Part shown: one piece after another, positions 3,227 through 28,472 of the stretch
Layout of the letters: each line of letters opens with the position of its first letter
How positions within the stretch are numbered: the first letter of the stretch is position 1
Assembly: GCF_025457605.1 (NCBI RefSeq)
Contig: NZ_JAMZFY010000001.1
Coordinates: 744,001 to 808,000 of the forward strand
Direction: 5' to 3'
From: Haloarcula laminariae
GTDB taxonomy: Archaea > Halobacteriota > Halobacteria > Halobacteriales > Haloarculaceae
DNA length: 64,000 nt
Translations under genes and position numbers: made by a program
Notes under the pieces: model-generated
What the model was told of the DNA's origin: nothing
Databases searched by the model: none
What the model saw: the letters and a program-made list of their open reading frames with translations, nothing else

Positions 3227-3310
3227 CTACTCCCGAGTTCGCCCCTGTTCTGTATGAACCTGTCCCTGCTCGCGCTGGCAGTGTTTAGTTACGTGGTGGG
3301 GACGGCAAAC

Positions 3311-3605
3311 AGCCAGAAAGCCCCCGCGTTCTCAGCTCCCGCGGCTCGCTGTCGTCCGAAAGGCGCTGCGCACCTTTCGTGATCACGAGAGAGCGAAGCT
3401 CTCTCGAACGACGAGTGGGTGCTTGCGTCACCGGGATTCGCTGAGAACGCGGCCCCTTTCAGTCCCACCCGAAGCCGGTTGACCAGCCGCCATGGGTGGG
3501 ACTGAAAGGGGCGGCTGGCTCCGGGAAGGCGGCCGACGCAAGGACCGCAACGCAGTGAGGACCGCAGCAAGGCCCCCGACTGGAGCCAGCCGGGGCTTTC
3601 TGGCT
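3311..3605. repeat. Family A dyad element, copy A1 (four-way-junction fold)
   Basis: It fills most of the gap at 3227-3723 between divergent nreA and rnhA. The outer stem pairs 3311-3324 (AGCCAGAAAGCCCC) with 3592-3605, 14 bp and perfect. Inside are three arms. Arm 1 pairs 3324-3336 with 3440-3452. The central arm pairs 3453-3470 with 3494-3511, 18 bp with a 23-nt loop. Arm 3 pairs 3512-3522 with 3582-3592. Stems share an end base at their borders. The outer ends lie 84 bp from nreA and 118 bp from rnhA, leaving room for a core promoter each side. No coding sequence is credible inside. Related copies lie at 18657 and 28217. Confidence 0.85.
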
Positions 3606-3723
3606 CTCTGAGCCTTTGCTTGCTAAGGGAAACACGACCTTCGCGCTCGGACGCGGGACTCGGCATCAAACGGCCGGAAGCCGACCACAACCCCTTTAGC
3701 GTCTGCCCGGTCTCCCTCGAACA

Positions 3724-18539: not shown

Positions 18540-18656
18540 ACCCGTAGGGAGTGGTCACGCGAATAAAAGGATTCAGAAAACGGGCTAGGAACTACTGACT
18601 GGATTCGCCGCGCCGCGAACGAACAGAGCTACCCTACGAATGCGCGAACCGAAGAC

Positions 18657-18808
18657 AGCCAGAAAGCCCCGAGCGGCTACGGTCCCGCGCCTCGCTGCGC
18701 GCGTTCGCTTCGCTCACGTGCTTGCGTCGTCGGGGTTCCCGTAGCCGCTCGCCCCTTTCAGTCCACCCGTAGCCGGTTGGTCAACCGCATGGGCGGGACT
18801 TTCTGGCT
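18657..18808. repeat. Family A dyad element, copy A2 (internally deleted)
   Basis: It lies in the 390-bp gap (18540-18929) between divergent grpE and XPB. The left outer end AGCCAGAAAGCCCC is at 18657-18670. Arm 1 pairs GAGCGGCTACGG (18671-18682) with 18739-18750. The central-arm left half is at 18752-18768. Its right half is cut short at GGGCGGGACT (18791-18800) and joins directly to the right outer end (CTTTCTGGCT, 18799-18808). Arm 3 and part of the central stem are missing compared with copies A1 and A3. The distances to the two genes are 117 and 121 bp. The other gap DNA holds promoters only. Confidence 0.8.
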
Positions 18809-18929
18809 GGTCGCAGAGTAGCTGGTGGACACTGCTGGCGCGTTCCGCACGGTCGCAGTCTCGATTATCCCCACGACTGCGTTTGCTAGCCGCGAAACCG
18901 TTATCGGGGGGCTCACCGAACCCCTGACC

Positions 18930-28216: not shown

Positions 28217-28472
28217 GCCAGAAAGTCCCGACCCGTTCGACTCGGGGGGCTCGCTGCGCGCCTCGCTCGTACCACTCGCTCGGTGCTTACGTCGCCCGCC
28301 TTCGCCGAACGGGTCGCCCCTTTCACTCCCGCCCAGCGCTGTTTGGCTAACCGGCTACGGGCGGACTGAAAGGGGCGAGCGGCTACGGGAACCCCGACGA
28401 AGTAAGTACCGCAGGCCGGAGGCCGAGGAGCACAACGAGTCGTGGGACCGTAGCCGCTCGGGGCTTTCTGGC
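28217..28472. repeat. Family A dyad element, copy A3 (four-way-junction fold)
   Basis: It occupies most of the 439-bp gap 28127-28565 between the divergent methyltransferase and PAC2 genes. The outer stem pairs 28217-28229 (GCCAGAAAGTCCC) with 28460-28472, with one G-T-type wobble. Arm 1 pairs 28229-28239 with 28306-28316. The central arm pairs 28317-28334 with 28359-28375, near perfect. Arm 3 pairs 28377-28388 (GAGCGGCTACGG) with 28448-28459. Arm 3 is identical to arm 1 of copy A2, while arm 1 differs from both. The ends are 90 and 93 bp from the two gene starts. No coding frame is convincing. Confidence 0.85.

Follow-up and report, generated by a model that had tools for sequence, protein, structure and literature searches.

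Three copies of family A in the window

The window, a stretch of 64,000 nucleotides of Haloarcula laminariae (contig NZ_JAMZFY010000001.1, positions 744,001 to 808,000), contains three copies of a palindromic repeat, here called family A. Copies A1, A2 and A3 were recovered at the positions given in a first-pass annotation of the sequence, which had announced a four-way-junction repeat in three copies. For A1 and A3, this architecture was borne out by DNA folding: a left arm, a centre hairpin and a right arm follow one another inside one outer stem, with fold z-scores of -9.9 (A1) and -4.0 (A3), and no shuffled sequence folded as well as either. A2 (z = -3.5) is a one-arm derivative, as the right arm and the 3' half of the centre stem (...GGGCGGGACTTTCTGG) are lost and a four-way junction is therefore impossible. 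The outer-stem tip CCAGAAAGCCCC occurs eight times in the window with at most one mismatch, compared with 0.25 occurrences expected by chance, and none of 100 shuffles reached this count. The limits 3311-3605 originally drawn for A1 were too narrow, since the element comprises 3277-3639 and is flanked by 8-bp target duplications. The features are as follows:

3269..3276: left target duplication of A1, CTCGCGCT, a 7/8 match to the right duplication
3277..3639, + strand: entire A1 element, a predicted MITE of 363 bp whose terminal inverted repeats, GGCAGTGTTTAGTTACG / TTGCTAAGGGAAACACGACC, are of the IS6 type
3313..3324, + strand: A1 outer stem, 5' side, CCAGAAAGCCCC, pairing with 3592-3603
3325..3451, + strand: A1 left arm with the variable 12-bp stem CGCGTTCTCAGC (3325-3336) / GCTGAGAACGCG (3440-3451)
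3352..3412 (approximate), + strand: nested double-hairpin insert of ~61 bp in the A1 left arm, CCGAAAGG..CCTTTCG tgatcac GAGAGAGC..GCTCTCTC
3453..3511, + strand: A1 centre hairpin, CCCCTTTCAGTCCCACCC / GGGTGGGACTGAAAGGGG
3513..3591, + strand: A1 right arm with the stem GGCTGGCTCCGG (3513-3524) / CTGGAGCCAGCC (3580-3591)
3592..3603, + strand: A1 outer stem, 3' side, GGGGCTTTCTGG
3640..3647: right target duplication of A1, TTCGCGCT
18585..18889: A2 together with its flanking spacers, from CTAG (18585-18588) to CTAG (18886-18889)
18659..18806, + strand: A2 core, reduced to the outer tips and the left arm, with a truncated centre stem and no IS6-type ends
28218..28471, + strand: A3 core, complete four-way-junction form
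28218-28229/28460-28471: A3 outer stem
28230-28241/28304-28315: A3 left-arm stem
28317-28375: A3 centre
28377-28388/28448-28459: A3 right-arm stem
28521: CTAG to the right of A3

At the site orthologous to A1, most relatives carry a small ORF between the two genes which flank A1 in the window (orthologs L173-L201). This ORF is missing from 3277-3723 of the window, where the element is found instead, and a simple insertion of A1 into an intact intergenic region was rejected because of the ORF present in most relatives. Judged from these orthologs, the A1 site was rearranged, possibly through an adjacent deletion of the IS6 type. Another MITE-like repeat (TACGGTTTATTGTAGATTATTTCCGGATTG...CAATAATCCGTA) is located at the site orthologous to A1 in genome G002 (L174); in G025 (L206), it is inserted in the centre stem of the copy orthologous to A3.

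Mobile form and older copies

The flanks of 85 distinct copies were aligned at CCAGAAAG. Both IS6-type inverted ends (GGYNGTGTTTAGTTWAGC) are present in 21 of these copies, including A1, at a fixed offset from the core: the end motif GTGTTTAG stands 32-33 nt outside the core and the tip 4 nt beyond. The outer 8-mers of the 21 two-ended copies match perfectly in nine cases and at seven of eight positions in three, as compared to 3 perfect and 18 such near matches among 2000 random 8-mer pairs with the same slack; around A1 (3277-3639), CTCGCGCT and TTCGCGCT differ at one position. A clean empty site, a check proposed by the first-pass annotation, was found in a close relative: G013 reads GTCGGGTC-340 bp-GTCGGGTC at its copy L296, and G018 reads GTTGGCGT-GTCGGGTC-GACCCGTAG with a single GTCGGGTC. 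Together, duplications and empty site demonstrate the mobility of the A1-type copies. The earlier suggestion of a MITE-like mobile element thus holds for the A1 type, with its shared IS6-type ends, 8-bp duplications and empty site, but neither ends nor target duplications were seen for A2- and A3-type copies, so that their mode of insertion is one we infer.

An autonomous IS measuring 696-697 bp, which has these ends, perfect 8-bp duplications and one ORF, was found at L335, L336, L338, L353 and L358; the ORF of L338 matches NCBIfam IS6 at 6e-56 and also Pfam DDE_Tnp_IS240. A1-type copies have in common with the 697-bp IS the inverted ends GGYNGTGTTTAGTTWAGC, and the GG tips, the 8-bp duplications of cognate length and the same-ended IS with its IS6-type transposase are all features of an IS6-mobilised element. 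The mobile form is non-coding and without a transposase, measuring ~340-400 bp when large inserts are excluded. None of the unpaired centre-stem hits yielded an autonomous version with a central gene, and most of them are copies reduced to one arm or degraded in other ways; a pair 2 kb apart in G006 appears to be two separate copies with unrelated genes between them. For L009, L010 and L011, two transposon ends can be told apart (AACAG and AGAG types), and the core is found both ways round with respect to them, which suggests inversion between long inverted repeats.

From its ends and duplications, the mobile form of family A would be a MITE of the IS6 type. Mobility of this sort is already a known kind because ISfinder lists an IS6 MITE, MITEHarch3, which from the naming we take to be haloarchaeal. 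This listing is mentioned in passages of PMC6807381, which also argue against placing the archaeal IS6-type elements together with IS6/IS26, and passages of PMC7986276 describe GG tips and 8-bp target repeats for IS6 elements, lengths tending to 700-750 bp for the archaeal ones, and two recorded MITEs of this family, one of 227 bp and one, close in length to the 340-bp G013 copy, of 336 bp; MITEHarch3 is one of the two. MITEBth2 and MITEHarch3 resemble family A in the lack of a transposase, the IS6-type ends and the 8-bp duplications, whereas the passages concerned (PMC6807381, PMC7986276) describe no four-way-junction core, covarying arms or class-wide spread. The archaeal IS6-type IS (clades Ai-Aiii of PMC7986276) share ends, 8-bp duplications and genomes with family A; unlike family A, they carry a transposase and are without the core, and their membership in IS6/IS26 is disputed according to passages of PMC6807381.

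Of the window copies, only A1 has recognisable IS6 ends, and most of the other sampled copies resemble A2 and A3 in having none. The orthologous site of A3 is filled in G000, G002, G025 and G029 (with a reduced left part in the latter) and reduced further in G007, G023 and G030; many other relatives have no copy and ~45 bp between the conserved promoter regions of two divergent genes. Likewise, the L283 locus is full in G010 and G002, consists of remnants in G008, G000 and G026, and has no core in G029 and G018. Such a mixture of full, reduced and absent copies at orthologous sites points to A2- and A3-type copies being old insertions, which would have decayed in some lineages and kept the core in others.

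Among 74 ends of old copies, 63 have CTAG and core separated by a distance of 2 mod 3, and first triplet positions are purine-rich. CTAG was considered as their true end and rejected, as the core-less orthologs L472 and L474 carry it too; it may therefore be host sequence or an older scar. A protein-coding role was dismissed as well, since the lengths of arms and centre do not keep a common reading frame and ortholog spacers are most variable at the second triplet position (25/39/24). Several old copies feature tandem end units beside the core, often of 45 bp (CCAGAAAGCCCC plus a 33-nt spacer beginning with GCTAGC in Haloarcula), as seen in the flanks of L292, L316, L285, L395, L398, L270 and, outside Haloarcula, L367.

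Spread, pairing and arm turnover of the core

Similarity searches gave a count of ~13 copies in the host genome, and one and the same copy is present in G002 and Haloarcula rara (L023 = L070). For some Haloarcula genomes, as many as 30-37 exact centre motifs were counted on each strand, and hardly any of the reversed control. Among 60 relatives, 49 had matches by plain similarity, part of which may rest on generic arm motifs. As the first-pass annotation had proposed, a covariance model was then used for haloarchaeal genomes; built from 27 insert-free copies, it gave matches at E <= 1e-5 in 145 of 194 class genomes. Its E-values are approximate, and some of the weaker matches across the class (E ~1e-7 to 1e-15) may be hairpins of unrelated origin. 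Full-length matches below 1e-30 were obtained in several families of Halobacteria, and full-length relatives of the element were found in many families. A viral origin was discarded, as none of 36 viral contigs with the 17-nt centre motif matched the covariance model. Two near-identical places in G014 (L404, L405) show GAAAGCCCC-hairpin-CCCCTTTCAGTCCCACCC in which the arm differs and the arm motif is absent, and could represent a distant variant of family A.

The core is a nested structure of 230-300 bp, composed of an outer stem, two arms and the centre hairpin (CCCCTTTCAGTCCCACCC). Over 53 named pairs in 27 copies, 97.5% of cells are paired. The two outcomes which the first-pass annotation had named as speaking against the family, namely the absence of further copies in related genomes and a loss of conserved pairing, clearly did not occur. 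Changes on both sides of a pair number 239, compared with 16-39 when the structure is slid by 1-3 columns and ~77 in shuffles. They affect all arm pairs but one (23 of 24); within Haloarcula, the outer and centre stems hardly vary. The outer tip is CCAGAAAGCCCC in this genus, and other families have different, mostly still pairing tips (CTCG/CGAG, CACG/CGTG, CGTG/CACG and CATG/CATG) with few mismatched hybrids.

The arms display the strongest variation, with 89 different 12-nt stems in 98 distinct arms. Their stem positions are nevertheless Watson-Crick paired in 87.5% of cases, versus 48% with shuffled partners, and much of the remainder derives from copies in which nested inserts shift the stem reading. 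Within ~650 arm cells, few G-U pairs were observed and one-sided changes number 3 as opposed to more than 200 two-sided ones; mismatches in canonical orientation include 6 G-T and 10 A-C, i.e., no excess of G-T. The near absence of G-U and one-sided changes, together with the missing G-T excess, argues for arm pairing being kept at the DNA level, as a DNA palindrome rather than an RNA. Outside the variable stems, nearly every arm contains an internal motif, CTCGCTGCG / GTGCTTRCGTCG, which is conserved across families.

Arms also differ between orthologous copies. The left arm of A3 is wholly different in G000 (GACCCGTTCGAC), G025 (GGCGGGCTGAAC) and G002 (GACTGTCTCCGG). L297 (G013) and L305 (G018) represent one locus, in which the spacers are 90% and the left arms 99% identical, but the right arms are unrelated; the right arm of L305 matches, at 98% identity, an arm from another G013 locus. 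Arms are thus replaced singly, with other copies as the source, in the manner of ectopic gene conversion. Arm exchange allows "compensatory" change to arise with no need for stepwise mutation, but leaves the origin of the pool of differing yet paired arms unaccounted for. The near-complete turnover of arm sequence with self-complementarity nearly always retained is unusual.

Gene context and competing explanations

Based on gene calls from a codon-usage script, 82 copies were classified: the neighbouring genes are in tandem for 51, divergent for 28 and convergent for 3, and no copy falls within a gene. All but three (79 of 82) precede one or more gene starts, and the distance from core to start codon is often 83-96 bp. 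As divergent and convergent gene pairs are equally frequent in the window (14 each), insertion just 5' of promoters is strongly favoured or tolerated.

We consider it probable that family A consists of IS6-type MITEs with a structured core, which are moved in trans and whose palindromes are kept at the DNA level. We infer that an IS6-type transposase would act on the element in trans and that the palindromes would be maintained as DNA via arm exchange, by gene conversion or template switching among copies, together with selection for extrusion or for binding of a protein to the arm motif. Copies would pile up 5' of promoters, where insertion is tolerated or preferred, and those of the A2 and A3 type would be old insertions which lost the IS6 ends and often retained the core. 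Several points sit less well with this explanation. IS6 ends are found in about a quarter of the sampled copies only, and A1 itself has a 7/8 duplication and a rearranged site. Moreover, IS6 transposition needs the ends alone, which leaves the conservation of the core across families unaccounted for, and decay of a MITE predicts a loss of pairing in old copies, many of which keep it.

The position of the copies could also reflect a domesticated promoter-proximal element, a possible though rather unlikely reading in which the core serves as insulator, supercoil sink or regulator site and the transposon ends are its vehicle. Consistent with such a role are the location upstream of gene starts, the recurrent spacing and the absence from genes, the A3 core structure kept at orthologous sites across species (G000, G002, G025), and the combination of conserved motifs with lineage-specific tips across families. 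However, many relatives are without the element at the same promoters, promoter-upstream insertions may simply survive in compact genomes, and one or both arms are lost in some orthologs (L212, L227, L468).

Complementarity without G-U intermediates and the whole-arm swaps among loci would equally be expected if the palindromes were functionless and template switching plus gene conversion restored the repeats, thereby mimicking compensatory change. We regard such neutral maintenance as possible, yet rather doubtful, as it explains neither the conserved CTCGCTGCG / GTGCTTRCGTCG motif outside the variable stems nor the fact that the three-arm architecture persists throughout the class.

A cruciform site for a protein, as already listed by the first-pass annotation, would be favoured by the DNA-level covariation, the protein being a candidate only. 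In its widest form, which seems unlikely albeit conceivable, the core would be a class-wide cruciform site whose shape is read by a protein recognising the arm motif and the lineage-specific tips, with arms as exchangeable cassettes of freely varying, nearly always complementary stems, a promoter-adjacent role in regulation or recombination, and IS6 ends as the vehicle.

Due to its covariation, the core could be mistaken for a structured RNA, another proposal of the first-pass annotation. In this case, the core would be transcribed and folded as a four-way junction, acting as regulatory or other non-coding RNA, in line with the strong covariation, the very stable fold and the conserved arm motif. 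The freely varying arm stems, however, contain almost no G-U and no excess of G-T over A-C, and the arms are inverted copies of each other, so that both strands fold alike; neither the G-U intermediates nor the strand bias of RNA-type covariation was found. Furthermore, many copies lie between divergent genes, and the window gave no Rfam match at gathering score, with only sub-threshold miRNA-like hairpins. A structured RNA is thus highly improbable. Single-strand hairpin transposition of the Y1/HUH type (IS200/IS605, REP/RAYT or PATE) is very unlikely as well, because, although family A is palindromic and intergenic with lineage-specific tips and its old copies are without evident target duplication, Y1 elements do not make the inverted ends and 8-bp duplications of A1-type copies and a gene-in-centre version was not found.

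With IS6-type MITEs as the preferred explanation, the new part is, with MITEHarch3 compared by name only, the class-wide, hypervariable and self-complementary junction core. MITEs normally consist of short ends with little inside; here, the interior consists of a nested palindromic core with almost complete turnover of stem sequence and retained pairing across families of Halobacteria. Family A could therefore be seen as a natural experiment on the maintenance of DNA palindromes, with selection for cruciform shape on one side and biased repair on the other, and as a candidate for a class-wide promoter-adjacent element in genetically tractable archaea.

Dispersed or long-lived palindromes are described for other systems. 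REP/BIME sequences (PMC3733652, PMC12306157) are likewise dispersed extragenic palindromes with lineage-specific sequences, but REPs measure 20-40 bp, most with conserved end tags, whereas family A is nested, 230-300 bp long and situated within a DDE-type MITE. Coding palindromes in the mitochondria of Nematomorpha (PMC6649704) are also perfect inverted repeats kept over evolution; they reside in protein genes, are not described as mobile and have no four-way core. The MITEs, PATEs and SMR-A of Haloquadratum walsbyi are short transposase-free haloarchaeal repeats, too, and the passages of PMC3119063 covered here describe no nested three-arm core or covarying stems. PATEs have no inverted ends and are related to IS605 types in the same passages, unlike the A1-type copies with their inverted ends and target duplications. 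SMR-A, as described there, insert into palindromes of other elements, similar to the nested double hairpins in family A. The latter constitute a second, smaller mobile palindrome inserted in arms, which is composed of two hairpins joined by ~7-10 nt (e.g., CCGAAAGG..CCTTTCGTGATCACGAGAGAGC..GCTCTCTCGAAC) and was seen at 3352-3412 of the window and at the L043, L100, L377 and L388 loci, with L110 as the ortholog of L043 that does not carry it.
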